Source of the DNA: a virus
Direction: 5' to 3' (one strand)
Length of the DNA: 64,000 nt
Virus record (IMG/VR): IMGVR_UViG_3300037070_001066
Span: 1-64,000 of that record
Shown here: one piece after another, positions 3,827 to 48,396 of the stretch
Layout: each line of letters starts with the position of its first letter
Position numbering within the stretch: position 1 is the stretch's first letter
Made by a program: the position numbers and the translations under genes
Notes under the pieces: model-generated
What the model saw: only the letters and a program-made list of their open reading frames with translations
Databases searched by the model: none
Told to the model about the DNA's origin: nothing

Positions 3827-6037
3827 TTATTTAAAATTCCTGCTAAAGAAAGGATCTTCTGATATCTTCTTAATGCGTTTATGTTCATTACTTTTAGCAG
3901 AATTAGTTCTTTTAACTCTATCCTCTCTAAGTATAAATAACATACCTGCAGAAGACACCCTATCGAAGTTACCATCTGAGTTCCAGGCAATACATTCTTC
4001 TAAGTAAGGAATAGTTCTAATAAGGTGTAAATTAAGTCTTTGATCTTCTTCATCTCCTTCGTTGTGTCTTTTTAACATAAATTGAGCTTGCAACAGTCTA
4101 CCCCACTTGTTAACTTCTTTGTTAGCATGTGTACCTTTAGCCTTATTTCCATATAGATTAGTTGCTTTAACCATATCCATATCTTTAAGAATTTGAGGAA
4201 CATCCGCTAAATAGTGTAAACAATTACGAGCATCAAAATAACTAAACAATCCTTTTAAATTAGATTCATAGTTAGCTTCACCATTATAAAACTTCAATAC
4301 ACGTAAGGCTGTTTCATATGCATCATTAGCAAGTCTAGGTCTACCAGTATACTCACAAACTATACGATCTGTGAATGTATCAAATCCGATAATACTAAAT
4401 AAAGAAGTACCGGTATCAGCATCAATAGGGTCAATTCCAAATATATATCTACCCCTTGTAACCACCCCTTCATTATTCTTCTTAGGCATCTCAAATATCT
4501 CAAGACATCCAGTTCTATCTGTATCTGAACTATCATAAGCTCTTAAAGGAAACTTATCTGTAGGCTTCCATTCAACATCTCCAGTAGTTCCATACACTAG
4601 TTCTCCAATATAATGCTCTGCAAGAAAAGCCTCTTTACGAGGTCCAATTGATTCAAGGTAGTCTTTTATATCAGCAACAGGAAACACTGTCCCCTCTGTA
4701 CGCATAATAGCCTCCTGAGGCGTGATAGGTTCCTCTGCCTTTCTCTGAGTAATAGCAGAAGCATCTGATGAACTATATTTAATAGTATGACGTTCCATTA
4801 ATAATTCAAGTATAGCCTTGATAATATCTGGCTCGCCTGTCTTAATATCATAACATCCATTTCTATTTAAATATGCTCCCCAAAAGAATCCACATTCAGT
4901 TTCTCCATGAGCTCCTTTATCATATACATTAGGCAGTCCATATATATTATATGCTGCAGGTCTATAGAACAGCTTTTCAGAACCTGAGAATGAAGCACCT
5001 TCAACACCTCCAGTTCCACCTGCTAACATAAATCCTGTATTCACACTACCATCCTGTACTGCTTTCAAGTTAACGTTCCAAGCTTTCTCTAGATTAGGAA
5101 ACAAACCATCTTCTTCATAATGAATTAATGGTCCTCTAATACCTCTAGCTTTATCTGGGTTATCCTTCATTGATATACAGAATACAGACGATAGGAGCCC
5201 TTTACGTGAACCATATTCATCTTTGTATCCTAACTGTACGTTCATCTCTTTTGTTGCATCTATCGTACGCATACGAGGCAATGGAGTGTGTTCAGCTATC
5301 CAGTCAAGACAGTCAAGTACCTTACCCCATATACCCTTATCACCAGAAAGGAAACCTTTATCTGATGCAAGGTGGAAGTTAGGATTACCTGATCCAGGAA
5401 ACACATACATGTTCCTAGGAGACTCAGATGCATTCTTGAAACTAAATCCAATACCCCTTGTCTTAAGTATCTTACCATGTTTACCTAGGCGCTTTGCTCT
5501 TGCTGTATAGTGATAGTATAGATAATCTCCTAACCATGTCTTAGCAAAGTCTTTAACACGCTCTCCTTGTGAACGTTCTTCTTTCTTACCTTGAGCAATA
5601 ACCTTAGCTAACCATATAGGACTATAGTTCCAATAGAAATACAGCTCTCCTGGAATCCATTCTCCATCTTCACGTACCATTCCATACTTCCAACGTTTAA
5701 GTTCTTCTCTCCAGAATTCAGCATATTCAGATTTAGGATTACTATTTGGCGCTATATTTGTATACTTACCATTACGCTTAAAGAACAATGATCGTTCTCT
5801 AAAGTAATCCATGTTCTCAAGTATATGAGGATTAGTTATATCTACAAGTTTGCGTCCATCATCATACATTGTATCTACAGGTCTATCTTTAACAAACCCA
5901 CGTATATGTTCAGGAGCAATAAGGTTCTTTAAGAACTTTACTGTAGCTAAATACTCTAATAGATTATCCCATACTTCTTTAGGTACTGAATTCTGAAGTT
6001 CTTCTGTTATAGGTGTTTGATATCTGTTTAATTCCAT
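3827..6037 (-). CDS. terL: Terminase large subunit
   Basis: 736 residues. This is the packaging motor ATPase plus nuclease that cuts concatemers and pumps DNA into the procapsid. The N-terminal ATPase half contains the segment ELYFYWNYSPI (about 128-138) and the Arg/Gly-rich segment KTRGIGFSFKNASE (about 192-205) in the adenosine/Walker A region. It also has a Walker B-like acidic run, PLIHYEEDGLF (about 305-315). The nuclease half shows YIFGIDPIDADTGTS (about 535-550), a typical RNaseH-fold first aspartate strand, and a later YFDARNC acidic strand. It overlaps the chaperonin gene by 10 nt, so the two are translationally coupled. Length and motifs fit crAss-like large terminases. No small terminase is recognisable nearby. 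Confidence 0.88.
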   Translation of the reverse strand: MELNRYQTPITEELQNSVPKEVWDNLLEYLATVKFLKNLIAPEHIRGFVKDRPVDTMYDDGRKLVDITNPHILENMDYFRERSLFFKRNGKYTNIAPNSNPKSEYAEFWREELKRWKYGMVREDGEWIPGELYFYWNYSPIWLAKVIAQGKKEERSQGERVKDFAKTWLGDYLYYHYTARAKRLGKHGKILKTRGIGFSFKNASESPRNMYVFPGSGNPNFHLASDKGFLSGDKGIWGKVLDCLDWIAEHTPLPRMRTIDATKEMNVQLGYKDEYGSRKGLLSSVFCISMKDNPDKARGIRGPLIHYEEDGLFPNLEKAWNVNLKAVQDGSVNTGFMLAGGTGGVEGASFSGSEKLFYRPAAYNIYGLPNVYDKGAHGETECGFFWGAYLNRNGCYDIKTGEPDIIKAILELLMERHTIKYSSSDASAITQRKAEEPITPQEAIMRTEGTVFPVADIKDYLESIGPRKEAFLAEHYIGELVYGTTGDVEWKPTDKFPLRAYDSSDTDRTGCLEIFEMPKKNNEGVVTRGRYIFGIDPIDADTGTSLFSIIGFDTFTDRIVCEYTGRPRLANDAYETALRVLKFYNGEANYESNLKGLFSYFDARNCLHYLADVPQILKDMDMVKATNLYGNKAKGTHANKEVNKWGRLLQAQFMLKRHNEGDEEDQRLNLHLIRTIPYLEECIAWNSDGNFDRVSSAGMLFILREDRVKRTNSAKSNEHKRIKKISEDPFFSRNFK

Positions 6038-7491
6038 ACGCTTGGATTAAGTACTATACAGTCTGTAGATAGTACAGTTTTAGCTACTGACGCTGCATTC
6101 TCTAATGCACACCTAGTAACCTTTAATGGATCTATAATGTTATTTAAAAACATATTCTTACTTGTATTAATCTTAGTTCCATTTGCAGCAATCATTCTAA
6201 ATGGAGAAGTAAGCGACTCTGTTATTTGAAACTCTGGAGTGTTTTCTAAATAATCACCAAAGAATAGTTCTAAAGATTTGTACAAAGCAACCCCTCCACC
6301 TTCCACAATACCTTCTTCTAATGCACATGCCACTGCAAGTACTGCATCATCATATCTATCTTTGCGTTCTTTCATTTCAATCTCAGACTTACCGCCTACA
6401 CGTATTAGTGTAGCCTTGGCTGTAAGGTTTTCAATTCTTTTATTTAGAAGGTTCTTGTCGTAGTCAGACAAGTCAGGCAAGTCAGACAATCCTTTAATAC
6501 CATTTACTATCTCATCTACGTTTATATCTTCATGTTTTACAAGTAAAGAATGATTCTTTGTAATTGTACAAGACTCCAGCTTGCCTAAACAGTTCGAATG
6601 AGCTGCTTTTCCTTGCGCTAGAGACACGATCTCTGCTCCAGTGAAGTCTGATATATCTCGAAGAAAATCTTTCCTTACAGGGCCAAATCCAGGAGTCTTA
6701 ATTACACACAGATTTATGTTGCCTGACATTACATTTGTCTCTAACTTACGCATCTCTTTCTCAGACACATGTTCTGCAATGATAAGTAATGATTCATCTA
6801 CAATAGATATCTTTGTCAGAATAGTCTTAAGTAGGTTCAGGTCTTCAATCTTACCATCAACAATCAATACGTGTGGATTACTAAACTCACATGTTTCTTT
6901 AGGAGTGTTTGCAAACCTTTTAGAGAAGAACGACACATCCAATTTCATACCACTAATTTCCTCAATAGCATCTTCCAGACTATTAGACTCTTCTACTTTA
7001 ACTATAGAAGAAAAATTATAAGCCTGTTGAATAATATTACCAATCTGTATATCGTTATTAGCAGATATACTAGCAACATATTTAATGTCTTCACGTTTTA
7101 ATTCTCTTGAATTATCTTTTAAGTGTTGTAATACTTTAGGAATTATATCTTCAAAGGCTTTGTTAATCTCAAGTGAGTTGTAGCCTTTAAGGTTTTGTAT
7201 AAATGCATTTGCCAATACTATTGCTGTAGTAGTTCCATCACCTGCTTGATCTACTGTTCGTTCTGCGACCTCTTTGACAAGGATCGCACCAAGCTGCTCA
7301 ATTGGATCTTTAAAGTTAATTGCTCTAGCAACTGACACTCCATCTTTTGTAACTCGTGGTTGTCCGTACTCATCACATATAATGACAGTTCTCCCACTTG
7401 GTCCCATTGTAGACGCAACTCCAGAATGCAACTTTCTGACTCCTTCGAATAATCTGTTTCTTGCTTCATCTGTAAAAAATATTTCTCCCAT
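6028..7491 (-). CDS. groEL: GroEL-like chaperonin (phage-encoded)
   Basis: 487 residues, against about 545 in bacterial GroEL. It refolds proteins in an ATP-driven double ring in the cytoplasm; in phages it is thought to fold virion proteins. Clear signatures are VASTMGPSGRTV (25-36, nucleotide contact), VTKDGVSVARAI (47-58), the ATP-hydrolysis motif DGTTT (85-89) and EEGIVEGGGVALY near residue 380. The apical domain is present but diverged. The Gly-Gly-Met tail of host GroEL is missing, and the chain ends soon after TDCIVLNPSVWN. It sits directly before terminase with a 10-nt overlap, so it is co-expressed with packaging genes. A GroES-like gene lies 1 kb upstream in the same transcript. Confidence 0.9.
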   Translation of the reverse strand: MGEIFFTDEARNRLFEGVRKLHSGVASTMGPSGRTVIICDEYGQPRVTKDGVSVARAINFKDPIEQLGAILVKEVAERTVDQAGDGTTTAIVLANAFIQNLKGYNSLEINKAFEDIIPKVLQHLKDNSRELKREDIKYVASISANNDIQIGNIIQQAYNFSSIVKVEESNSLEDAIEEISGMKLDVSFFSKRFANTPKETCEFSNPHVLIVDGKIEDLNLLKTILTKISIVDESLLIIAEHVSEKEMRKLETNVMSGNINLCVIKTPGFGPVRKDFLRDISDFTGAEIVSLAQGKAAHSNCLGKLESCTITKNHSLLVKHEDINVDEIVNGIKGLSDLPDLSDYDKNLLNKRIENLTAKATLIRVGGKSEIEMKERKDRYDDAVLAVACALEEGIVEGGGVALYKSLELFFGDYLENTPEFQITESLTSPFRMIAANGTKINTSKNMFLNNIIDPLKVTRCALENAASVAKTVLSTDCIVLNPSVWN

Positions 7492-19053: not shown

Positions 19054-19367
19054 GGGGCTGTTTTGGTTTTGACTGGTAGTGAGTAGGTAAATAGTTCAGT
19101 GAGAGATAACTCTAAACATAGGTGAATTGAATAAATGGAAAACAAATTGACGCCAATATGGCAAAAGTTCGTAGCTTAATCAACTCTGAGGAGTTTGAAT
19201 TAGCAGCATAATTATTCTAAAGATTTATCATTTAGATTAAAATGATTGGTGGATTGTTAGCTAAAACTAGTTAACCCCTTTGAACGTAACAATTTAAAAA
19301 CGTGAAACTGTATACAACTATTTAGCGAATGCTAATCAGGACGCGGGTTCGAATCCCGCCAGCTCCA
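19054..19367 (+). ncRNA. ssrA: Phage-encoded tmRNA (ssrA)
   Basis: The 5' end GGGGCTGTTTTGGTTTTGAC matches the universal tmRNA opening. The 3' end has a T-arm (GCGGG-TTCGAAT-CCCGC) and CAGCTCC, which pairs with GGGGCTG over 7 bp with one G-U. The encoded 3' end is ACAC, so CCA is presumably added by the host. The likely tag reading frame starts at GCA 19161 (possibly one codon earlier) and ends at TAA 19209-19211, giving a tag of about 16 residues, AKVRSLINSEEFELAA. tmRNA with SmpB frees stalled ribosomes and tags the product for proteolysis. Total length 314 nt, slightly shorter than bacterial tmRNAs. No smpB is seen in this window. Confidence 0.92.
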
Positions 19368-19383
19368 CACTCCTAGAGTGGTT

Positions 19384-29551: not shown

Positions 29552-31243
29552 ATGAGTGATTTAAATCCGATGTTGTTTGTCGACAGTTACAAACTTCATC
29601 ACAAGCCTATGTATCCAAATGGTATGGTAAAACTATATTCTAACGGAACACCTAGAGCTAGTAGAATGCCAGGAGTTAAAGAAGTAGTTGTGTTTACAAT
29701 GCAACATACTATTAGAGAGTATCTTATTGAGAAATTTAATAAAAACTTCTTTATGACCGAAGAGAGAGAACGATGTTTAAACCAATCATGGGCTCTTGAG
29801 GCTTTAAAAGGAAAGATGGTTGCAGACTACAAACGTCACTGTCCTGTCGATACTAAACACATCGAAGATTTATGGGACTTAGGATATCTTCCTATTGAGA
29901 TTAAAGCTCTTGAAGAAGGCACATTATGTCCAATTGGAGTTCCAGTATTCACGATTACAAACACTCATCCTAGTTTTGCTTGGTTAGTGAATTATTTGGA
30001 AACTTTAATTTCCTGTTGTATTTGGCAAGGTATGACCTCAGCTACAATCACTCATGAGTATAAGAAAATATTAACCAAACACGCTTTAGAATCAGATGAA
30101 GAAAACGTCGAATTCGTTAACTGGCAAGCTCATGACTTTAGCATGCGTGGCATGTCTAGTGTCGAATCTGCTATTACTTCTGGAATGGGTCATTTGCTAT
30201 CAGTCACAGGCAGCGACAATATACCAGCAATCTACCAACTTGAGAAGAGTTATTCAGGTTCTGGGCTTATTGGAGCTTCTATTCCTGCTACTGAGCATTC
30301 TGTCATGTGCATGGGTAATAAAGAGAATGAGGTAGATACATTTAGACGTCTTCTAACTTTATATCCTGAAGGAAACTTAGCAATAGTTTCAGACACTTGG
30401 GACTTATGGGATGTAGCAGAATTCTATTTACCTGTATTGAGAGATTTAATTATGTCTCGTAATGGTAAGTTAGTAATACGTCCTGATTCAGGTAATCCTG
30501 CAGATATTCTATGTGGATTAGATTATGAAGAGATTGATCATCGTGATGAAGTTTACTTAATAGACGACCCTAAAGTTGTATATGTAAGAAACGAAGATGC
30601 TTTCTTTAGAGTTAAAAAGATAGAAAAATCTGGAACTTTTGATTACGTTTATTCAGAAGTTAGAGAAGCAGAGGTTAAAGGGCTCGTACAGCTACTTTGG
30701 GACGCATTTGCGGGCACAACTAATACTCAAGGGTATAAAGTATTAGATTCACATATTGGAGCGATCTACGGCGATTCTATTACGTTGGCACGTGCTGAAG
30801 AAATCTGTACTAGACTTAGAGAAAATGGCTTTGCATCTACAAATGTTGTACTTGGTATTGGAAGTTATACTTACCAATATAATACAAGAGATACTTTTGG
30901 ATTTGCTATCAAAGCTACATATGGTGAGGTAATGAGTTCAGATGGTACTTGCACTTGTGAGAATACTTCGTCATGTGAATGTGGTAAGATTGATAGAAGA
31001 GAAATCTACAAAGATCCTATTACTGACGATGGTACTAAGAAATCTAAGAGAGGCTTGTTAAGAGTAGACATGGAAGACGGTAAAATCGTTTGCTATGAAA
31101 GCCAAACTCCTTTCGAAGAGACTCAAGGTTTACTACAAACTGTATTCAAAGATGGCAAGTTATATAACCAAACCACTCTAGAGAGAATTCGAGAAAAACT
31201 TAAATCACAATTTCATGTTGAGCCAGCGGGATCAGGACGATAA
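29552..31243 (+). CDS. Nicotinamide phosphoribosyltransferase-like enzyme (Namat-type, NAD+ restoration)
   Basis: 563 residues, longer than NAMPT (about 490). NAMPT signatures: VDSYKLHHKPMYPNGM (10-25), SIPATEHSVM (about 245), LVIRPDSGNPAD (about 305) and SYTYQYNTRDTFGFAIKAT (about 440-458). A Cys-rich insertion (CTCENTSSCECG, about 469-480) may bind metal. It is followed by a PRPP-synthetase-like gene. In phages that pairing is known as the NARP1 pathway: the Prs-like protein makes ADP-ribose pyrophosphate and the NAMPT-like protein joins it to nicotinamide, rebuilding NAD+ destroyed by host defence. A standard NAMPT salvage role is the alternative. Confidence 0.85.
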   Translation: MSDLNPMLFVDSYKLHHKPMYPNGMVKLYSNGTPRASRMPGVKEVVVFTMQHTIREYLIEKFNKNFFMTEERERCLNQSWALEALKGKMVADYKRHCPVDTKHIEDLWDLGYLPIEIKALEEGTLCPIGVPVFTITNTHPSFAWLVNYLETLISCCIWQGMTSATITHEYKKILTKHALESDEENVEFVNWQAHDFSMRGMSSVESAITSGMGHLLSVTGSDNIPAIYQLEKSYSGSGLIGASIPATEHSVMCMGNKENEVDTFRRLLTLYPEGNLAIVSDTWDLWDVAEFYLPVLRDLIMSRNGKLVIRPDSGNPADILCGLDYEEIDHRDEVYLIDDPKVVYVRNEDAFFRVKKIEKSGTFDYVYSEVREAEVKGLVQLLWDAFAGTTNTQGYKVLDSHIGAIYGDSITLARAEEICTRLRENGFASTNVVLGIGSYTYQYNTRDTFGFAIKATYGEVMSSDGTCTCENTSSCECGKIDRREIYKDPITDDGTKKSKRGLLRVDMEDGKIVCYESQTPFEETQGLLQTVFKDGKLYNQTTLERIREKLKSQFHVEPAGSGR

Positions 31244-31334
31244 TCCTAGAAGCCCAGGCTTTACAGGTTGCCCTAAATGTGAAAAACCAAAAGGGCTTTG
31301 TACGTGTAAACCAAAAACAGGAAAAAAATGCTAA
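31215..31334 (+). CDS. Tiny Cys-rich protein between the NAD+ genes
   Basis: 39 residues, ATG at 31215, TAA at 31332-31334. It overlaps the end of the NAMPT-like gene by 29 nt and the start of the Prs-like gene by 7 nt. Five Cys are arranged as CPKCEKPKGLCTC and a terminal KKC, typical of a small zinc-binding unit. It fills the otherwise empty 84-nt gap exactly. It could be a third component, a coupling peptide or a chance frame. Confidence 0.45.
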   Translation: MLSQRDQDDNPRSPGFTGCPKCEKPKGLCTCKPKTGKKC

Positions 31335-32209
31335 GTCTAAATTTAACTAACCAAGAAACGTCTGACATCCATTTTAAAATTTATAATTTTCCAGATGGAC
31401 AAAGACAAGTAAAGATAGAGTCGCCTGTAAAGGCGCTCTACTCTTTCAAAGAAACTCCTGTTACTATAATGTCTAGAATGAATAACTTTCAAGATCTTGA
31501 ATTGATTATTTGTTCAGTTAAATCATTGAGAGGATTAGGATTTAAAGAGTTAAATCTTTATTGTCCACTTTTCCTTGGTTCAAGAAGTGATAGAGTTTTC
31601 GAACCTGGTACAAATAACTATCTTAAAGATGTTATATGTCCAATTATAAACTCATTAGAGTTTGAATCTGTTATTGTAGTAGATCCTCATTCAGATGTCT
31701 TAGAAGCATGTTTAAATAACTTTAAAAAGATTAGCAATCTCGCTTTAGTTGAATTTGCTTTAAAAGACTTTAAAGATGAAGACTTTACATTAGTATCGCC
31801 TGATGCAGGAGCATTAAAAAAAGTCTTTAATATTGCTGAAAAGATTAAATACGAAGGCAGTATTTTAACTTGTACTAAAACAAGAGATGAACACGGGAAA
31901 CTCTCAAACTTAAATATCCCTCTAAATTATGAACATGTATGCAAACCCATAATTATCATTGATGATATATGTGATGGTGGAGCTACATTTGCTAGAATCG
32001 GTAGGGCTATATATGGTTATAGAGTTGCAACTGGAGCTGATTCAAAAACATTTGGAAAAGTTTCCTTAATTATCACGCATGGAATGTTTAATAATGGATT
32101 CGCTGAATTAGCTAGATATTTTAATTCTATGTATACAACGAATAGTTATAAAAACATAAATAAAGCTTTCTTGACTGCGCATAAAATTAAACAGTTAGAT
32201 GTATTTTAA
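31328..32209 (+). CDS. Ribose-phosphate pyrophosphokinase-like enzyme (Adps-type)
   Basis: 293 residues, close to the PRPP synthetase length of about 315. Signatures: LGSRSDRVFEPGTNN (about 83-97), the pyrophosphokinase strand VVDPHSD (about 117-123; DLHS in housekeeping Prs), and the phosphoribosyl-binding loop IIIIDDICDGGATFARIG (about 209-226). The family normally makes PRPP from ribose-5-phosphate. Next to a NAMPT-like gene in a phage it more likely pyrophosphorylates ADP-ribose. The stop overlaps the next start by one base. Confidence 0.85.
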   Translation: MLSLNLTNQETSDIHFKIYNFPDGQRQVKIESPVKALYSFKETPVTIMSRMNNFQDLELIICSVKSLRGLGFKELNLYCPLFLGSRSDRVFEPGTNNYLKDVICPIINSLEFESVIVVDPHSDVLEACLNNFKKISNLALVEFALKDFKDEDFTLVSPDAGALKKVFNIAEKIKYEGSILTCTKTRDEHGKLSNLNIPLNYEHVCKPIIIIDDICDGGATFARIGRAIYGYRVATGADSKTFGKVSLIITHGMFNNGFAELARYFNSMYTTNSYKNINKAFLTAHKIKQLDVF

Positions 32210-32616
32210 TGAATGGAAACACTAGAAAAGTTGCTCGTACGGGGTCCATAATGGTCAGGATCAATAATAAGTTTTATGAAGTTCCAGATAATGTTTTATT
32301 ATTTAAATCTCATGATGGAAAAGATATCTATCTTTCTGGTGTAAAAAATGATTCTAAAAATGATTTTAGAAAAGACTGGGTTGGAATTGTTAAATTTATT
32401 GAAGATGATAAATTTGAAAACGTTCCTTTGGCGTTATTAGAAAAGTTTATGGATGAACCATATAAGAAATTTGTTATAGATGATGAGGAATATGATATCC
32501 CTTTGCATCTATCAGATGATTGTAGACAAAAGATTTCCAAAATATCTAAGTATGTACCAAGAATTTTAAGAGAATTAAAAGAATCTTACAAAGATTTTCT
32601 ATTTAAAAGTAATTAA
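32209..32616 (+). CDS. Hypothetical protein, 135 aa
   Basis: Beta-rich N-terminus with two similar strand-turns (NKFYEVPDNVLLFKS; KFVIDDEEYDIPLHLSDD), which suggests an internal duplication, and a helical C-terminus. Coupled by one base to the Prs-like gene, so possibly part of the same function, but no family is recognised. Confidence 0.6.
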   Translation: MNGNTRKVARTGSIMVRINNKFYEVPDNVLLFKSHDGKDIYLSGVKNDSKNDFRKDWVGIVKFIEDDKFENVPLALLEKFMDEPYKKFVIDDEEYDIPLHLSDDCRQKISKISKYVPRILRELKESYKDFLFKSN

Positions 32617-33749: not shown

Positions 33750-34148
33750 ATGGAAAGAAACAATTTAATAGCAGTTTACGGTACATTACGAAAGGGATGC
33801 GGAAATCACAGTCATTTTTTAAGAAATGCTGATTTTAAAGGAGAGTTTTCTACTGAACCAGTTTACAGTTTATATAGCTTAGGAGGTTTTCCTGGGTTAA
33901 AGGCTAATGGCAATACGTCTGTTAAGATGGAAGTATATGCAGTTAATGATGATGAAGCAGATACTGTAGATTCATTGGAGGGATATTCTAAAAATAGAAC
34001 TCCTCACTTTTATGATAAAGAGGAAATCGAGACTCCTTGGGGAACAGCTAGTGTATACACTTATGTTAGAGATGTGAATGAAGATTCATTTATTCCAACT
34101 GGTGACTGGCTTAACAGGGTAGTTATGGAGCCTGTTTATCGTTTTTAA
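33750..34148 (+). CDS. Gamma-glutamylcyclotransferase-like protein (AIG2/GGACT family)
   Basis: 132 residues. The signature AVYGTLRKGCGNHSHFL (8-24) is the substrate-binding loop, and the candidate catalytic Glu lies in SLEGYSKN (about 73-80). This family cleaves gamma-glutamyl or epsilon-gamma-glutamyl amides to 5-oxoproline plus amine. A second, more diverged copy is at 40661, next to amide-ligase genes, so both may process isopeptide or gamma-glutamyl products of that cluster. Confidence 0.82.
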   Translation: MERNNLIAVYGTLRKGCGNHSHFLRNADFKGEFSTEPVYSLYSLGGFPGLKANGNTSVKMEVYAVNDDEADTVDSLEGYSKNRTPHFYDKEEIETPWGTASVYTYVRDVNEDSFIPTGDWLNRVVMEPVYRF

Positions 34149-34743: not shown

Positions 34744-34793
34744 TTAGGAAAAATCAATTATTTTTCGTATATTTGTATAAAATTTATACAAAT
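34744..34793 (+). promoter_or_regulatory. Promoter and palindromic operator of the homing nuclease
   Basis: TTAG (34744-34747), 20 nt, TATATTTG (34768-34775) fit a host-type promoter with a weak -33. A perfect 11-bp inverted repeat with a 1-nt centre (ATTTGTATAAA, A, TTTATACAAAT, 34771-34793) runs from the -7 box into the start codon. It is a good site for autoregulation. Confidence 0.6.
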
Positions 34794-35382
34794 GATAGGA
34801 ATATATAAAATTACATCTCCATCAAATAAAATATACATTGGTCAAAGTACGGATATTGAAAAAAGATTTAGTCAATATTTAAAGTTAAATTGTAAATTTC
34901 AAAAAAGATTGTTCAATTCATTTACCAAATATGGTGTTGAAAACCATAAATTTGAAATATTGACATTGTGTTATGAAGAACAATTAAGTATATTTGAACG
35001 AGATTTTCAAGAAGCTTATGATGTTATTGGTAAAAATGGATTAAATTGTATATTAACAAATACAAGTTCATTAAAAAAGATTTTATCTGAAGAAACTAGG
35101 ATAAAAATGTCTAATTCTAGAATTGGTTTTAAATTTTCTGATGAATCTAAACTTAAAATGAGTATAGCTAAAAAAGGAAGAAAAAGAACTGAAAAAGAGT
35201 TGAAATCTTACGAGTTATATCATAGTTCTAAATCTAAACCAATAATTTGTACTAAAACAAATAAAGAATGGTATTCTTTAAGAAAATGTGCTAAAGAGCA
35301 TGGAATTTCAAAAAGCATATTAAGTAATTATTTGAATGGTAAAAATCCTAATAAAACAACATTGATTTATAAAAATTCTTAA
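34792..35382 (+). CDS. GIY-YIG homing endonuclease
   Basis: 196 residues. The GIY-YIG catalytic domain begins GIYKITSPSNKIYIGQS (3-19) and holds an Arg helix (DIEKRFSQY) and a metal-binding Glu region (NHKFEIL). C-terminal DNA-binding modules follow: a NUMOD3-like repeat (SEETRIKMSNSRIG; SDESKLKMSIAKKGRK, about 99-130) and a NUMOD1-like helix-turn-helix (SLRKCAKEHGISKSILSNYL). It is AT-rich, with its own promoter, inserted between replication genes, typical of a free-standing homing gene. No intron is obvious around it. Confidence 0.88.
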   Translation: MIGIYKITSPSNKIYIGQSTDIEKRFSQYLKLNCKFQKRLFNSFTKYGVENHKFEILTLCYEEQLSIFERDFQEAYDVIGKNGLNCILTNTSSLKKILSEETRIKMSNSRIGFKFSDESKLKMSIAKKGRKRTEKELKSYELYHSSKSKPIICTKTNKEWYSLRKCAKEHGISKSILSNYLNGKNPNKTTLIYKNS

Positions 35383-41086: not shown

Positions 41087-41965
41087 ATGGTAATAAACAT
41101 TAATTCAAAAAAGAAAGTAGGAGATGTTCTATTATCAGTTGCATTAAGAACTGGTAAATATGTTCCAATGATTAGAAGCAGACATCCTTCTCATGCAGGT
41201 TTAAGAAGAGCTTTACCTAAACTTCCGTTTAGAAGTGTCATCAGACTAGGCTCTCTGACTGTATTAGAGGACGATAGCAGCAAGAAAGGGAACAGGGTGG
41301 AACTGAACAGTGCATTGGCTATAAAGAATAGCTCTAGCAAGCTTAAAATGAAGCAATGTTTTACTCAAGGAGGCGTTAAAACAGCTGAATGGATATATTC
41401 TACAAGTGAGAATGATATCATAAATTGGCTGAAGGAATATCCAATTGTGGCTAAAAGCCATATGGGTTCTCGCGGAAGAGGAAATACATTGTTGAAAACT
41501 GAAGCTGAAGTAAGAGCTTTTATTAGAAGCAAGGATCTTTCACATTACATTTTTGAAAAGTATTATAACTACAACAAGGAGTATAGATTGCATGTCAGTG
41601 CTGACGGTTGCTTTTATGCTTGTAGAAAAATGCTTAAGAATGAATTTAAAGATCATCCTAATGCGTGGCAAAGACATGATGACAATTGTTCTTGGATACT
41701 TGAAGAGAATGAAATGTTTGACAAACCTACAAATTGGGCTAATATAATTGATCATTGCGTTAAAGCATTGATTAGTTGTGGTCTTGATTTTGGAGCATGT
41801 GATTTGAGAGTTCAAAACAATATTGATAAAGAAGGAGTTAGAAGACTTCAACCTGACTTCATTGTTGTAGAGATTAATTCTGCGCCATCATTTGGTAAAG
41901 TTACTCTTGAAAAATACAAAGAAGTATTACCTCAACTTTTAGTTAAAAAACATGAAAATCGTTAA
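41087..41965 (+). CDS. RimK-like ATP-grasp amide ligase
   Basis: 292 residues. ATP-grasp features in order: a substrate/pre-ATP region (to about 85), LKMKQCFTQGGVKT, the nucleotide strand YPIVAKSHMGSRGRGN (about 122-137) with its Gly-rich loop, EYRLHVSADG (about 164-173), LDFGACDLRVQ (about 233-243) and the metal-binding VVEINSAPSFGK (about 264-275). Such enzymes join a carboxylate to an amine via acyl-phosphate. Overlaps the next gene by 14 nt. Confidence 0.85.
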   Translation: MVININSKKKVGDVLLSVALRTGKYVPMIRSRHPSHAGLRRALPKLPFRSVIRLGSLTVLEDDSSKKGNRVELNSALAIKNSSSKLKMKQCFTQGGVKTAEWIYSTSENDIINWLKEYPIVAKSHMGSRGRGNTLLKTEAEVRAFIRSKDLSHYIFEKYYNYNKEYRLHVSADGCFYACRKMLKNEFKDHPNAWQRHDDNCSWILEENEMFDKPTNWANIIDHCVKALISCGLDFGACDLRVQNNIDKEGVRRLQPDFIVVEINSAPSFGKVTLEKYKEVLPQLLVKKHENR

Positions 41966-42173
41966 AAAAGGAGATGAACCAACTTTTGTTCCTATAACCT
42001 TATATATTACTATAGAGAGCAAAGAGGAGCAAGAGACGTTATTATCATTATTTAAAACAATAACTTCTCATGAGTTAACAACAATTGCTTTAAAGAATAC
42101 AAAAGAACATCTTAACCAAAAGGTTATTAGCACATTTATAGGAGGTTTTTATAATTCATTATTAGATAAATAA
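41952..42173 (+). CDS. Hypothetical protein, 73 aa, in the amide-bond cluster
   Basis: Strand-helix protein: PITLYITIESKEEQETLLSL (about 15-34), then a helix and FIGGFYNSLLDK. Short enough to be a carrier, substrate peptide or small subunit for the adjacent ligases. It ends in a free Lys (LLDK), but this may be chance. No family recognised. Confidence 0.6.
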   Translation: MKIVKKGDEPTFVPITLYITIESKEEQETLLSLFKTITSHELTTIALKNTKEHLNQKVISTFIGGFYNSLLDK

Positions 42174-42180
42174 AAAAAAC

Positions 42181-42921
42181 ATGAAAAAAATAATTGGAGT
42201 TTATGCTGATGTAGCAAATGGTAGAGTTGGTCAAACAGCTCCGTATATGCAATTCTTAGGTCAATTTGGTAATGTACGTTTAATACTACCTACTGACAAT
42301 TTAAGAGAGGTTGCAAAAAGTATTGATATGTTAGTATTGCCTGGAGGTTCTGATATAAATTCTGCCAAATATAATCAAGCGCCAGATATTATGACAGGAC
42401 GTCCTAATATGCATTTTGATTATTTAGATGCTAATCTGTTGCCTTTGGTAATTGAGATGAAGAAACCTATTTTAGGTATTTGTCGAGGTATGCAAGCATT
42501 AAATGTTCACTTTGGTGGTACATTAAATCAGCATGTTATTGGTCATCACCAAGGAGACAATCGTGCTGCTACAAAGCAAGAAATTCAATTTGAAGACGGA
42601 AAGAAACCGCATATGATTAACTCTATGCACCATCAATCTGTTAACATTTTAGGAGATGGTTTTGAAATTGTAGCTTATAGCCAATGTTATCAAGGATGTT
42701 ATTCTGAAAAGAAACATGTTAGAAACTGGTATTTTGTTGATGACAAGAAGAAGAAAGAATTCTTTGAATGTATTGTCATCATTGAGATGATTAAGCACAA
42801 AAATCTTCCTATTGTTGGAGTTCAATGGCATCCAGAGGAGTTCAATTGTAAAGTTACAGTTGATTGTATTAACACTTTATTAAAAGAATATGAAGAAAAA
42901 GTTAGCAGTCCTAGTAAATGA
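42181..42921 (+). CDS. Class I glutamine amidotransferase-like hydrolase (peptidase C26)
   Basis: 246 residues. Nucleophile elbow GICRGMQ (Cys101), the LPGGSDINSAKYNQ loop (53-66) and the catalytic His-Glu in VQWHPEEF (His217, Glu219) are intact. The family includes gamma-glutamyl-GABA hydrolase, which releases amines from gamma-glutamyl conjugates. Followed by a paralogue overlapping by 32 nt. Confidence 0.85.
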   Translation: MKKIIGVYADVANGRVGQTAPYMQFLGQFGNVRLILPTDNLREVAKSIDMLVLPGGSDINSAKYNQAPDIMTGRPNMHFDYLDANLLPLVIEMKKPILGICRGMQALNVHFGGTLNQHVIGHHQGDNRAATKQEIQFEDGKKPHMINSMHHQSVNILGDGFEIVAYSQCYQGCYSEKKHVRNWYFVDDKKKKEFFECIVIIEMIKHKNLPIVGVQWHPEEFNCKVTVDCINTLLKEYEEKVSSPSK

Positions 42922-43570
42922 TTCAGCAGATTATGAATCTTATGTTGCGTTCCTTAAACTAAAATATGATATTGAGCTTGTAAAGCTTTCTTCTATTGCA
43001 AAGAAAGAAACGATTCCTGAGATTGATTTAATGTTGTTTACTGGAGGAGAAGATGTTGATCCAGCTTATTACAATGAGAAACCTGGAAAAAGAACATTCT
43101 ATAATCCTTCAAGAGACAATGATGAATCTAAAATGTTTAGAATGCTAAATCAAAAGATTCCAAAACTTGGAATTTGTAGAGGAAGTCAATTCTTAACTGT
43201 AATGAGTGGTGGTAAATTAATACAACATGTGGAAAATCATGGTATTGGTGGAACTCATTCAATTACATTTGATTATATTCATAATCATAAAATGCAGATT
43301 ACGTCAACGCATCACCAAATGATGTATCCTTTTGATTTATCAAAGAAAGAATATATACTTTGTGCTTATGCAACCAACTATTTAAGTCCTATATACTTAA
43401 ATGGTAATGACAGAAACATTGAAGTGCCTGAAGAATTCTTGGAGCCAGAGATTGTATTCTATCCTAGAAGTAATTCTTTAGCAATTCAAGGTCATCCTGA
43501 ATCTGGTATTATGTCAGATGATGGAAAAATGTTTATATTGAACTATATAGACAATGTATTAAAGCTTTAA
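42890..43570 (+). CDS. Second class I glutamine amidotransferase-like hydrolase
   Basis: 226 residues. GICRGSQ (Cys96), FTGGEDVDPAYYNE (50-63) and IQGHPESG (His202, Glu204) are intact. Related to the preceding product and probably a tandem duplicate with changed specificity. It may trim or hydrolyse gamma-glutamyl products made by the neighbouring ligases. Confidence 0.83.
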   Translation: MKKKLAVLVNDSADYESYVAFLKLKYDIELVKLSSIAKKETIPEIDLMLFTGGEDVDPAYYNEKPGKRTFYNPSRDNDESKMFRMLNQKIPKLGICRGSQFLTVMSGGKLIQHVENHGIGGTHSITFDYIHNHKMQITSTHHQMMYPFDLSKKEYILCAYATNYLSPIYLNGNDRNIEVPEEFLEPEIVFYPRSNSLAIQGHPESGIMSDDGKMFILNYIDNVLKL

Positions 43571-43595
43571 CATTAAACCTTTAAATTATAAAAAC

Positions 43596-44414
43596 ATGGA
43601 AAAAATTGTAGAAAACAAGCATGGAGTTACCTTAGGTAGTGATCCTGAGATTTTTATATGTAATGCTGAAGAGATCGTCTCAGCAGAAGGTTTAACAGGT
43701 GGAACGAAACACGATCCCGTTCCAATTAGCGAGGAAGGACATATGATTCAAGAAGATGGTATTGCTCTCGAGTATAACATACCAGCTTGCTCCACAGTAG
43801 AGGAGTTTATTGCTCATCATGAATTTGTTCAAGACTATTTTAAAGTTTTAATCGCCGCTCATGGTTATGAGTTTAGCAAAGAAAGAAGTGCGGATATTAA
43901 TCCAATCTTCTTGCAAACTGAGCAAGCTCAAACATTTGGGTGTGAACCTGATTATAACGTTTATACTAGAAGCGAGAACGAAGCTCCTGAATCAGGACAG
44001 AATTTAAGATGTGTTGGAGGTCATATTCACATTGGATATCCAGATCCAGACCAAGACGTTACTGAGAAAATTGTAATGATGTTTGACATGTTTGCAACCT
44101 TGCCATCTCTATTTAAAGACAATGATACGCGTCGTAGAGAATTGTATGGTAAAGCCGGTAGTTTTAGGTTTAAGATTTTTGGATTAGAATGTAGAGCATT
44201 GTCTAACTTTTGGATTCATACAAGAGAAGACATGACTTGGGTATGGAATCAAACAATGAGAGCTGTTAATTGTGTTCTTGACGGAGAGTCTGATGCTTTA
44301 ATTGAAAAGTATTCTTCTGATGTTAGAAATGCAATTAATACTGCTGATTTAAAATTAGCAGCTGAATTGATGATCATGATTGATCATGAAGTACAAAAAG
44401 AAGTGGTAGAATAG
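43596..44414 (+). CDS. COOH-NH2 ligase (glutamine-synthetase-like fold, type 2)
   Basis: 272 residues. GVTLGSDPEIFICN (9-22) with its metal/ATP acidic pair, an IALEYNIPAC strand (about 57-66), VGGHIHIGYPDP (about 144-155) and the RELYGKAGSFRFK with LECRALSNFW block (about 187-212) match the phage COOH-NH2 ligase type 2 family. It uses ATP to form amide bonds between a carboxylate and an amine; in phages the substrate is unknown. Confidence 0.8.
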   Translation: MEKIVENKHGVTLGSDPEIFICNAEEIVSAEGLTGGTKHDPVPISEEGHMIQEDGIALEYNIPACSTVEEFIAHHEFVQDYFKVLIAAHGYEFSKERSADINPIFLQTEQAQTFGCEPDYNVYTRSENEAPESGQNLRCVGGHIHIGYPDPDQDVTEKIVMMFDMFATLPSLFKDNDTRRRELYGKAGSFRFKIFGLECRALSNFWIHTREDMTWVWNQTMRAVNCVLDGESDALIEKYSSDVRNAINTADLKLAAELMIMIDHEVQKEVVE

Positions 44415-44435
44415 ACAAACAAACAAGACTAAATA

Positions 44436-46403
44436 ATGGAAATAAAAATTTTATTACTACTATTATTAGCACATTATATACTCTTCTTTCTATTTAGAGG
44501 GAAGGGTGATGTGCTCGCTTGCGGTATATTTGGATGGTCTGGAAGCAGAACTACAAGATTTAACAAGCAAAAATTTGATATTCTAGGACTTTTTAACAAT
44601 TCAAGAGGTGGAGATTCATGTGGAGTGTCTACAGATGGAGAAATCTATTATGGTACACTTTTAAACAAAAGTTATGATGACTTTGTTGTTAACAAGAATT
44701 ATCTTTCTCCTGTAAGAATTCCTGTTGTTATTGGACATTCTCGTAAAGCAAGTGTTGGAGCTGTAAGTGAAACAAATGCTCATCCATTTGGATTTGGAGA
44801 TTTAGGAGAAGGTCATGCTTTTATTGGGTGTCATAATGGTACTTTAAGCAATTATGAGGAACTTGGTAAAAAATATGAAGTCGAAACTTCTGTCTACAGT
44901 GAAAGAAATATGTTCCTAAGGACTAAAGTAGATTCTGAAATACTATTGGAGATACTATATAAAACTAAAGATACGGAAGTATTACAAGAATATATAGGAG
45001 GAGCTGCTTTATTATTCCAAAATTTAGAAGAACCTAACACATTATTTGCATTTCATGGAGCTTCTAAAAAAGAAGTTGGAGATAGAGGTGAAACTTTATA
45101 CGAAGAAAGACCTTTATATTACTATCAAGAAGCAAAAGATTCAGTTTACATTTCTTCAATAGAAGAAGCTTTAATATTCATAGGTGGAGAAAAAGACAAA
45201 ACTGTTTTTGAATTTGATCACAATCTTTTGTACAAAATCAAAGATGGAAATGTTGATAAAGCTGTAACTTATGAAGTGGACAGGAGAGGAGCTGGCCAAA
45301 AGAAACCCTATGGGGGTGCGGGTTTTTGCATGGGTGGGACGGCTACTGGGACTAATACTGCCAGAAACCACGGTCCTGCCAAAAGGGGAAAGCGAAAAGA
45401 AAGAAGTAAATCTAGACGGTTCAAACAAATAGCAAATGTCGCAAATATATACGATGAAACTGTTATTGAGGGAGACTTTAAATCTGCAATATATTATAAC
45501 AAATTAAGATATTGGAGAAATGGTCACTTAATAGATGGTGTTTTCACATATATTAAAGGATTTGGTTTGTATAAGATCGGAGATCAAGCTTCTGATTCAA
45601 ATAATAAATTGTATCAATTGATGGGAGAACACTTTAGTCTTGAAGATGGTATGTTTTTAGATACTGTTTATTTAGAACAAAGACTCGCTCTTGATGAAAC
45701 TATATTTGTACCATTTGAATTTAGTACAAAGGAACCACCTGTATTCTTCTTTCATAATGGAATCATGCTAGAAACAATGCATGACTTTGCTGCATTAAAT
45801 GGAGAGTATGCAAGTAAATTTTCCTTTGAACATTTATCGCAAATGTCTAAATACCCTATCTGTAGAATGCGCAAGAATCGGCCAGACAATAACAGACAAG
45901 AAATACTTTATAATGGTCAGCCTTATACCAATAATTTTATACCTTTGCAATGTAATAATTGCTACAATATTGAAAATGGTAATTTAATCAATATAGATAG
46001 GTTAGAAGAAATTGTTGTGAAAGAAGCTGAAATTTGTTGTTCTGTTAAGATTCCTTCTACTAATGAGGTGATACAGTTGCCCATGGAATTTGATGCTCCA
46101 ATTATGGGGCCGAATAGTTTGATCAATGCATATCATCCTGCTAGACCAACTGTTGAATTTCTGGATGAAGATCCTCCTATTGAAGATTATTTCCAAAAAA
46201 AGGGAGATGATGAAAAGGTTTTGAGCATCATTAATAAGCACATTATGCCAGTTTACACACAATTGCAAACTTGTAATGAGGATCTTAAAAATGAAGAAGA
46301 TGAAACTATTCAAGAGCTTATTGACTTAAACAAGGATTACTTATTGAGTGTTGACTGTATTGTTGAATCAAAATCCAAAGAAAATGAAGGAGAAGCTAGT
46401 TAA
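44436..46403 (+). CDS. Class II glutamine amidotransferase with N-terminal hydrophobic leader
   Basis: 655 residues. The Ntn nucleophile is predicted at Cys29 in LACGIFGWSGSR; HSRKASVGAVSETNAHPF (about 99-116) and CHNGTLSNYEEL (about 131-142) complete the glutaminase fold. Residues 5-20 are strongly hydrophobic (ILLLLLLAHYILFFLF), so the enzyme has a leader that must be cleaved to expose Cys29, or translation starts internally at GTG 44511. The C-terminal 370 residues are a beta-rich domain of unknown function. It probably supplies ammonia or glutamyl groups. Its end overlaps the amidoligase gene by 20 nt. Confidence 0.8.
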   Translation: MEIKILLLLLLAHYILFFLFRGKGDVLACGIFGWSGSRTTRFNKQKFDILGLFNNSRGGDSCGVSTDGEIYYGTLLNKSYDDFVVNKNYLSPVRIPVVIGHSRKASVGAVSETNAHPFGFGDLGEGHAFIGCHNGTLSNYEELGKKYEVETSVYSERNMFLRTKVDSEILLEILYKTKDTEVLQEYIGGAALLFQNLEEPNTLFAFHGASKKEVGDRGETLYEERPLYYYQEAKDSVYISSIEEALIFIGGEKDKTVFEFDHNLLYKIKDGNVDKAVTYEVDRRGAGQKKPYGGAGFCMGGTATGTNTARNHGPAKRGKRKERSKSRRFKQIANVANIYDETVIEGDFKSAIYYNKLRYWRNGHLIDGVFTYIKGFGLYKIGDQASDSNNKLYQLMGEHFSLEDGMFLDTVYLEQRLALDETIFVPFEFSTKEPPVFFFHNGIMLETMHDFAALNGEYASKFSFEHLSQMSKYPICRMRKNRPDNNRQEILYNGQPYTNNFIPLQCNNCYNIENGNLINIDRLEEIVVKEAEICCSVKIPSTNEVIQLPMEFDAPIMGPNSLINAYHPARPTVEFLDEDPPIEDYFQKKGDDEKVLSIINKHIMPVYTQLQTCNEDLKNEEDETIQELIDLNKDYLLSVDCIVESKSKENEGEAS

Positions 46404-48396
46404 AACAATTAAAGGAGAAGATCGTAATGAGAAAGACTGTAGACTTATTGATGGACAATACTATTATATAGGGGACATCCATAGAGAAAACTCTGGAGAT
46501 ATATATCTAATTAACAATAGATATATAAGAGCGTCTACTGAAAGAATCGTATTCGATCATTTTGAAGGTGAGTATAAGTTGAAAAATAGCAGTTTAACTC
46601 ATGGTATAATTGATATTGAAGACGGAACTCCTGTATTTGGTTATTTCTCTAAAAATGATCTTTATAACGTAAAGGTTATAGTTAAGGATTTGAGCGAAAG
46701 AGTTGCAATTTCAGCAAATGTACTTGGATATGAATTCAGAGAAAGAAGATCTGATGGAGTGTTCTATCACATTTCCCTTTTAGATGCTAATAAGTTTAAC
46801 CTGCTTAGAGGTATTTCAAGAGAAATAAAAGAAAGCTTTCCTTATGATTCTAAAGGGTCTATTGCTAAAATTACAAAAACATTTGAGTCTAATTACAAAC
46901 CTGTTATTTGTAGAAATGCAGAAATTGTAGGTAAAACTTTAAAGGATTATACATTTGGATTAGAGTTTGAAACATGTGCTGGAATAATACCTAATAATAA
47001 ATTAGTATACTTGCCATTAATACCATTGAGAGATGGTTCAATTAGCGGTATAGAATATGCTACAATTCCATTAAAAGGTCCAGTAGGAGTTCAAGCATTA
47101 ATTGATTCTGTAGATGAATTGAAAAGAAGAACATCCTATAGTGATGAATGCTCTTTACATATACATGTTGGTGGTATGCCAAGAACGACTGAGTATATAT
47201 TAGCATTCTACAAGACTATATCATTGTTGCAAAATGACATATTTTCAATGTTCCCGCTTTACAAGAAATATAATTTTGGCGTTAAACGTAAAAACTATAG
47301 CGCGCCATTTCCATTTGAAGAGATTAACTTTAGAATGGATCCGATCATAAATTATAATGATAAAAAGCAGGTTAATAAGAATTTTGATCATTTGTTCACA
47401 TATTTATCTGGAGGTGTAACTTTCGCAGAATATGGTAATGATTTAAGTCAAGTACTTGTACATCCTCAAGATCCTCAAGGAGCTGCTAAATGGAATATTA
47501 AGCATAGATATTCTTTTGTAAACTTAATTCCTTTAATATTTGGAAATCATCAAACTATTGAATTTAGAATTCATACACCAACGTATGATATAAATAAAAT
47601 ATTGGATTTCTTGATGTTGAATATTTATATAATTGATTATGTTAACATAAACTATAAATTGATTCTTGCAGGCAAAGATACTTTATCTATCATGAGACCA
47701 AGCTTGCAGTTTATGTTAAATGATTATGTAAATAACATTGAAGGAAGTAGTAGAAAAACTATATTTAATGAGTTAAATCGTTATATTAGTGAAAGAAAAC
47801 ATGCTTCTGAAGACATTGCAAGAACAAAAGGTGTTGTTTACCAAGAAGAAGACTTAAGACTTCCTAAAGGTTTAGGATTTAATACCTACAAATACCATAG
47901 ATCAAATGGATCTTATTTTTCAGCTTCATATCTTGAAGATATTCTATACGAAAGTAGTCTGAGTAGCTTTGACAGCCCTTTTGCTGAGGCTTCTATTAAA
48001 TTCGAAGATGTAAATCCTTCTGCTAAATTAAAACTTCGCAGTGATGTTGGAGTTTCTCCTAAAAGGAGGCCAAGAGATTTAGCTAGAGAGAAAGAAGTTT
48101 TAGAATCTTCAAGAAAAGCTCTTGAACAGATACAAGCATCTGAAAAAGAACGTTTAGATAAGGGGTTAGGTGGAGGTTTATATGAGCAAATGAGACAAGC
48201 TGCTGAAATTAGATATTCTCTTAAAGACAATGGAACTAGGCCTGTAATTTCAGATCCTGGAACTTTATCTGGACTTGGTGTATCTACTTTTGGAACTAGC
48301 GGCTCTGTTCAAGTTAAAGAAAGTTCTTATGATTGGACTCTTAAGGCTTCTAAGTCTAATGATGATTGGGAAGAATCTATACATAAACCAGAATAG
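46384..48396 (+). CDS. Amidoligase (glutamine-synthetase-like fold)
   Basis: 670 residues from the ATG at 46384, preferred over an upstream GTG at 46348. The amidoligase core lies at about 190-420: FGLEFETCAG (192-201) with metal-binding Glu, SISGIEYATIPLKG, CSLHIHVGG (about 256-264), and a late TIEFRIHTPTYD (about 390-401) with the Arg of the family. The N-terminal 180 residues and the Ser-rich, Arg/Lys-rich C-terminal 150 are extra. It should catalyse ATP-dependent amide bond formation, probably on a peptide or cell-wall carboxylate. The long termini suggest a protein partner. Confidence 0.8.
   Translation: MKEKLVKTIKGEDRNEKDCRLIDGQYYYIGDIHRENSGDIYLINNRYIRASTERIVFDHFEGEYKLKNSSLTHGIIDIEDGTPVFGYFSKNDLYNVKVIVKDLSERVAISANVLGYEFRERRSDGVFYHISLLDANKFNLLRGISREIKESFPYDSKGSIAKITKTFESNYKPVICRNAEIVGKTLKDYTFGLEFETCAGIIPNNKLVYLPLIPLRDGSISGIEYATIPLKGPVGVQALIDSVDELKRRTSYSDECSLHIHVGGMPRTTEYILAFYKTISLLQNDIFSMFPLYKKYNFGVKRKNYSAPFPFEEINFRMDPIINYNDKKQVNKNFDHLFTYLSGGVTFAEYGNDLSQVLVHPQDPQGAAKWNIKHRYSFVNLIPLIFGNHQTIEFRIHTPTYDINKILDFLMLNIYIIDYVNINYKLILAGKDTLSIMRPSLQFMLNDYVNNIEGSSRKTIFNELNRYISERKHASEDIARTKGVVYQEEDLRLPKGLGFNTYKYHRSNGSYFSASYLEDILYESSLSSFDSPFAEASIKFEDVNPSAKLKLRSDVGVSPKRRPRDLAREKEVLESSRKALEQIQASEKERLDKGLGGGLYEQMRQAAEIRYSLKDNGTRPVISDPGTLSGLGVSTFGTSGSVQVKESSYDWTLKASKSNDDWEESIHKPE

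Follow-up and report, generated by a model that had tools for sequence, protein, structure and literature searches.

NARP1 pairs of the enzymes Adps and Namat have been validated in Bacillus phage SPbetaL1 and P. foliorum (PMC12774641) and in mycobacteriophage DyoEdafos (PMC13232231), and the pair of Vibrio phage ICP1, NrsAB, has been validated in vivo (PMC11559045). By analogy with these relatives, the pair described below probably catalyzes both reactions of the pathway and acts in counter-defence: a host NADase would cut NAD+ into ADP-ribose and nicotinamide, Adps would transfer pyrophosphate from ATP to ADP-ribose, yielding ADPR-PP, and Namat would couple nicotinamide to ADPR-PP, giving NAD+ in one step without an NMN adenylyltransferase. 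A survey of viral NAD+-ADPr systems from 2022 describes NadV together with NadM/NadR; its text, figures aside, holds no PRPP-synthetase term, and no passage linking NadV to a HAD protein was found in it (PMC9503650).

The window considered here is the whole analysed stretch of DNA, 64,000 nt of a 104,771-base virus record. The phage is crAss-like, and the locus is very probably its NARP1 operon, which has the three-gene form HAD-Namat-Adps. Sequence comparison establishes to which families the enzymes belong, which specificity residues they carry, that the genes are tightly clustered, what type of phage this is, and that HAD recurs as a neighbour.

Gene order and coordinates of the operon

The initial annotation had described two genes as a likely NARP1-type pair, and both reading frames are open at exactly the positions it gave (29552-31243, 563 aa, and 31328-32209, 293 aa, + strand). 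They form one operon on the same strand with a gap of 84 nt (Table 1). A third operon gene was missed: it encodes a HAD phosphatase and lies 4 nt upstream of Namat. HAD, Namat, and Adps are thus on one strand with gaps of 4 to 84 nt, and the next gene, encoding a 135-aa protein (32209..32616), overlaps. For this protein no match was found in PHROG or Pfam, and it is kept only in two loci (L033 and L038). These are the nearest relatives found, having the HAD-Namat-Adps order and most flanking genes in common with the window. A scan for promoters and terminators returned a site count no higher than chance.

Table 1. Positions in the 64,000-nt window of the operon genes and of features in their predicted products
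Feature	Position	Strand	Basis or remark
HAD-family phosphatase, capless, 138 aa	29131..29547	+	PHROG 1238, E 2e-17; ends 4 nt before Namat
Namat, predicted nicotinamide ADP-ribose transferase, 563 aa	29552..31243	+	PHROG 448, E 7e-176; Pfam NAPRTase, 7e-33
Namat R38, clamp-loop Arg (R40 of SPbetaL1)	29663..29665	+	alignment
Namat H249, catalytic His	30296..30298	+	invariant alignment column
Namat variable loop, residues 323-375, 53 aa	30518..30676	+	median 24 aa in relatives
Namat clamp helix motif GSYTYQYNTRD, residues 437-447	30860..30892	+	published motif and alignment
Possible 39-aa Cys-rich ORF (CPKC...CTC), may be chance	31215..31334	+	overlaps Namat end
Adps, predicted ADP-ribose pyrophosphate synthetase-type protein, 293 aa	31328..32209	+	PHROG 619, E 2e-52
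Adps DPHS motif, residues 119-122	31682..31693	+	comparison of Adps with Prs
Adps loop DDICDGGATF, residues 212-221	31961..31990	+	columns of E. coli DDMIDTGGTL
135-aa predicted protein, same operon	32209..32616	+	1-nt overlap with Adps stop

The 39-aa reading frame (MLSQ...GCPKCEKPKGLCTCKPKTGKKC) is in a different frame from Namat, and its stop overlaps the start codon of Adps (ATGCTAA). It was considered as a frame-shifted, Cys-rich tail of Namat, but the relatives examined have no such tail, and we therefore list it only as a small ORF that may exist. Cys-rich sequence is also seen in the Namat loop at residues 460-482.

Namat and Adps compared with Nampt and Prs

Namats have a clamp helix with the motif GSx(phi)x(phi)x(phi)TRD, in which positions 3 and 7 are aromatic, and a clamp loop (SCL) bearing a stacking Arg, Lys, or Tyr (PMC12774641). 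The window protein agrees with the published motif (GSYTYQYNTRD), and its R38 aligns with R40 of SPbetaL1 in the clamp loop. In the alignment every published position of the conserved Nampt catalytic core is kept, including the catalytic His, and GGxLLQ, the motif of clamp-less Nampt, is absent. Human Nampt (GGGLLQ) and the bacterial Nampt 7yqo (GGALLQ) both differ from the clamp motif, as do the phage Nampts of MD18, BcepSaruman, and nt-1, and H. ducreyi NadV (GAQTYQRNTRD) is without both aromatics. Among non-redundant Namat relatives with Adps in the locus, the first clamp position is F or Y in 84/86 and the second in 77/86. A tree built from 26 proteins sets the three phage Nampts apart at 100/100 and has the window protein among the validated Namats. 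The nearest solved chains are 9w5x (E 1e-133) and 9w5w; both entries are titled nicotinamide phosphoribosyltransferase, and from their sequence and the paper we take them to be SPbetaL1 Namat. Identity to the closest Namat of solved structure is about 44-51%. The assignment of 29552-31243 to a putative Namat, not an ordinary Nampt, holds.

It had also been remarked that the protein is longer than usual. Its 563 aa are indeed long but not unusual: 96 non-redundant relatives have a median of 507 aa and a range of 354-598 aa, and 15 of them have at least 550 aa. The additional residues form two variable loops, that at residues 323-375 supplying most of them, and length was therefore dropped as a special feature.

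For Adps, an AlphaFold2 model calculated from a 20-sequence alignment (mean pLDDT 90) has the predicted fold of a PRPP synthetase (E. coli Prs, E 6e-16). In the Adps tree the three Prs included, that of E. coli among them, split off at 100/100, and the window protein is found with the phage Adps. The DPHS motif, which the initial annotation had pointed out as a departure from a usual DLHS, is present, but it is no oddity, being the commonest form in phage Adps (56/86); all three true Prs compared have DLHA. In Prs, a loop (DDMIDTGGTL in E. coli) binds the 5-phosphate of ribose-5-phosphate. The same alignment columns are occupied in Adps by DDICDGGATF, a change that would agree with a substrate bearing ADP on the 5-carbon. 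The evidence supports a predicted Adps-type enzyme at 31328-32209, outside true Prs.

An alternative is that the two proteins are Prs and Nampt after all and make PRPP and NMN, in which case a host NMN adenylyltransferase would be needed and the pair would belong to auxiliary metabolism, not to NARP1. The Namat and Adps families do derive from Nampt and Prs, and the database names follow this descent: PHROG 448 is annotated as nicotinamide phosphoribosyl transferase and PHROG 619 as ribose-phosphate pyrophosphokinase. Moreover, SPbetaL1 Namat retains with PRPP about half of the activity of human Nampt, giving NMN in vitro (PMC12774641). Such canonical salvage is nevertheless very improbable here, because clamp motif and loop Arg are present in Namat, neither protein groups with the Nampts or Prs compared (100/100 in each tree), and the ribose-5-phosphate loop of Prs is replaced in Adps; the clamp residues and both trees led us to reject a plain Nampt/Prs reading of the pair. 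In the 104,771-base record, which may be incomplete, no match was found to PF01467, the NMN adenylyltransferase superfamily (14/14 control genomes were positive), nor to macro or Nudix domains, nor, in a search without positive control, to the RyR domain. The record therefore looks unlike the NadV-NadM route. As far as sequence can tell, the NARP1-type pairing first proposed is borne out by the clamp signature, the clamp-loop Arg, the catalytic core, both trees, the pairing in an operon, and the lack of an NMN adenylyltransferase superfamily match.

The HAD-family phosphatase gene and its possible substrate

The protein encoded upstream of Namat has the sequence characteristics of the HAD superfamily (DxDxT, a Ser/Thr in motif II, a Lys, and an acidic motif); among 20 relatives D23, D25, T27, K100, and D109 are invariant and T61 nearly so. 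HAD folds head the VIA-align structure list obtained with its AlphaFold2 model (pLDDT 91), which gives the fold and does not indicate substrate or function. The model is similar to Bacteroides thetaiotaomicron BT_0820 (Z 10.8, with an rmsd of 4.2 across 105 residues), with weaker likeness to the 3'-phosphatase of T4 Pnkp, KdsC, and the phage pentose-bisphosphate phosphatase 9iqw. A Foldseek search produced no match to a HAD protein at E values up to 0.001.

How often the gene accompanies NARP1 was approached from both sides. Starting from the pair, HAD accompanies the NARP1 genes, next to them or in between, in 24/86 non-redundant Namat+Adps loci, in one of them at some distance. Starting from HAD, the window protein alone was searched against 50,697 phage records and found adjoining Namat in DAC15, cr126_1, PhAER-3, VPT02, and PTm1, the Namats of which bear clamp-type motifs; in Lak phages a distant HAD copy is located elsewhere. 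A HAD alignment of 20 sequences contained no region of sufficient conservation for searching. Two HAD alignments, which were drawn from NARP1 neighbourhoods and are biased in this respect, were then searched against IMG/VR and yielded 108 non-redundant loci; Namat or Adps is present within the fetched stretch of 91 of these, and in 79 it is within 300 nt on the same strand. For scale, 1,937 of the 50,697 phage records (about 4%) have any Namat relative. A HAD search of bacterial genomes gave one weak partial match. In the HAD loci with a Namat-family gene (n=89), the clamp is present in 83 and Adps in 84; HAD is therefore associated with the chemistry of ADPR-PP rather than that of NMN. The gene orders seen are AhN, NhA, hNA, ANh, and hAN, and HAD presence requires 17 changes on the Namat tree, from which it follows that the gene was gained and lost often.

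It could be argued that HAD, though often found nearby, is functionally unconnected with NARP1, and its occurrence in less than a third of the NARP1 loci, as well as the position of the distant Lak phage copies, would be in line with this. We consider it unlikely in view of the direct adjacency in 79/108 HAD-first loci and in several gene orders, of the many changes on the Namat tree, and of the low share of phage records with a Namat relative. HAD is, by these comparisons, a recurrent third gene of predicted NARP1 loci, and the present locus a predicted three-gene variant. The NARP1 literature searched, as far as its texts were accessible and with the founding NARP1 paper not among them, makes no mention of a HAD gene, and the novelty of the third gene is uncertain.

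We tentatively propose that HAD, at times replaced by a macro-domain protein, is an undescribed third NARP1 enzyme, which would convert ADP-ribose phosphates to ADP-ribose and thus counter NAD+ destruction beyond what Adps and Namat can. HAD would remove phosphate from a dead-end ADP-ribose species and make it usable by Adps. The best candidate substrate may be ADPR-1''-phosphate, which would be supplied by RES-type NAD+ phosphorylases or by the spoilage of ADPR-PP; ADPR-2'-phosphate (with NADP+ as its source), pyrophosphate, and RNA 3'-ends would be other candidates. According to the 2022 survey, RES-type toxins form ADPR-1''-phosphate by phosphorolysis of NAD+, and macro domains can hydrolyse this product (PMC9503650). 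ADPR-1''-phosphate should be a dead end for NARP1 unless dephosphorylated, because a free 1''-OH is presumably required by Adps, and a HAD or macro enzyme might relieve it.

It is also conceivable, and we hold this no less tentatively, that HAD belongs to the operon but acts on something other than ADP-ribose phosphates, either as an inorganic pyrophosphatase that pulls the reaction of Namat forward or as a phosphatase of RNA 3'-ends. In favour of this reading, Namat releases pyrophosphate, as is the chemistry of its family, the fold relatives include T4 Pnkp 3'-phosphatase and KdsC (Z about 6-7), and, according to the same survey, HAD phosphatases occur in phage RNA-repair neighbourhoods (PMC9503650). 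Against both stand the clamp-type Namat accompanying HAD in 83/89 loci and the presence, in a similar place in other loci, of a macro-domain gene, known for ADP-ribose chemistry.

A macro-domain gene occupies a slot similar to that of HAD in 14 other loci and may fill its job in those phages. HAD and macro genes are both near the pair in none of the 86 Namat+Adps loci (p 0.008); strict mutual exclusion is weakened, however, by the 7/108 HAD-first loci with a macro gene within the stretch. Macro-domain genes in HAD's slot, in or beside NARP1 operons, were noted in L017, L018, L042, L051, L056, L057, L060, L103, and L108. The Bennett 'phosphatase' adjoining Namat was considered as a further HAD and proved to be a macro domain.

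A gene for a PF15891 nucleoside 2-deoxyribosyltransferase-like protein (about 158 aa) was observed in 28/96 non-redundant NARP1 loci (among them L010, L011, L046, L050, L051, L053, L055, and L079), frequently in the space that separates Adps from Namat or directly behind Namat, and is absent near the window operon. It could be another accessory enzyme.

With HAD, NARP1 gains a recurrent third gene with a directly testable substrate. If it is true that HAD or macro proteins turn ADPR-1''-P into ADPR, this would account for the recovery of phages not only from hydrolases but also from NAD+ phosphorylases, and a general rule would suggest itself, namely that the accessory enzymes of NARP1 (RyDEP, HAD, macro) supply ADP-ribose to Adps.

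The phage and its place among known systems

The best matches of TerL are Steigviridae crAss phages (about 40% identity, full length) and the portal protein matches PHROG 6547 (E 2e-162), from which it follows that the virus belongs to the crAss-like phages and is only distantly related to the gut genera in culture. An Adps gene is present in 86/96 non-redundant Namat-family loci, and the Namat-first order is in the minority (15/86). Window Adps clusters at 100/100 with that of Leptolyngbya phage Lbo-JY46 and two environmental contigs, not with gut crAss phages, and the Namat tree is in agreement (93/80). Thus, the NARP1 genes of the window lineage and of gut crAss phages appear to have separate histories, and this crAss-like lineage would have come by its pathway for rebuilding NAD+ along another line than the gut phages did.

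Several other genes of the window deserve mention. A GroEL-type chaperonin gene (6028-7491, -; PHROG 5725, E 1e-112) adjoins the terminase, and a tmRNA gene is at 19054-19368 (+; tag GKQIDANMAKVRSLINSEEFELAA); no tRNA genes were found in the 64,000-nt window. A gamma-glutamyl cyclotransferase gene (33750-34148, +) lies 1.5 kb after Adps, and in Lbo-JY46 a relative lies 0.6 kb after its Adps. The same gene block has a GIY-YIG homing endonuclease with a NUMOD3 motif (34792-35382, +). A cluster at 41087-48396 (+) comprises genes for an ATP-grasp/RimK-like ligase, two glutamine amidotransferase-like proteins, a COOH.NH2 ligase, a glutamine-fructose-6-phosphate aminotransferase-like protein, and an amidoligase; Lbo-JY46 has similar genes beside its NARP1.

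How does the operon compare with described systems? The phage salvage systems of MD18 and BcepSaruman (NadV/Nampt plus NadM) have the Nampt-family fold and catalytic residues in common with it; they differ in having no adenine clamp and a nucleotidyltransferase gene in place of Adps. ICP1 NrsAB is, like the window pair, an Adps-Namat pair and restores NAD+ against host defence in vivo (PMC11559045); its order is Adps-Namat and it has no HAD gene. The ICP1 pair is reported to be costly where the host is without Nezha (PMC11559045). The observation that Adps is frame-shifted at about 2237-2244 in ICP1 2019_Mat_D (L012) and intact in 2015_Dha_A is in keeping with such a cost.

SPbetaL1 NARP1 agrees with the window operon in both enzymes, the core residues, and the clamp (Namat 44% identity over 96% of the length, tblastn), whereas its order is Adps-Namat, its Namat is shorter (491 aa), and a HAD gene is absent. 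The RyDEP-NARP1 of DyoEdafos likewise has a third gene, the product of which makes ADP-ribose for Adps (PMC13232231); there, however, it is a RyR-domain glycosidase, and in the window phage a HAD phosphatase. The gut crAss phages cr111_1, cr126_1, and DAC15 also belong to the Crassvirales, have Namat before Adps, and include in the operon a HAD gene from the same PHROG. In these, however, HAD lies between Namat and Adps, the enzymes form a separate clade, and the core Asp215 of Namat is Glu, unlike in the window Namat.
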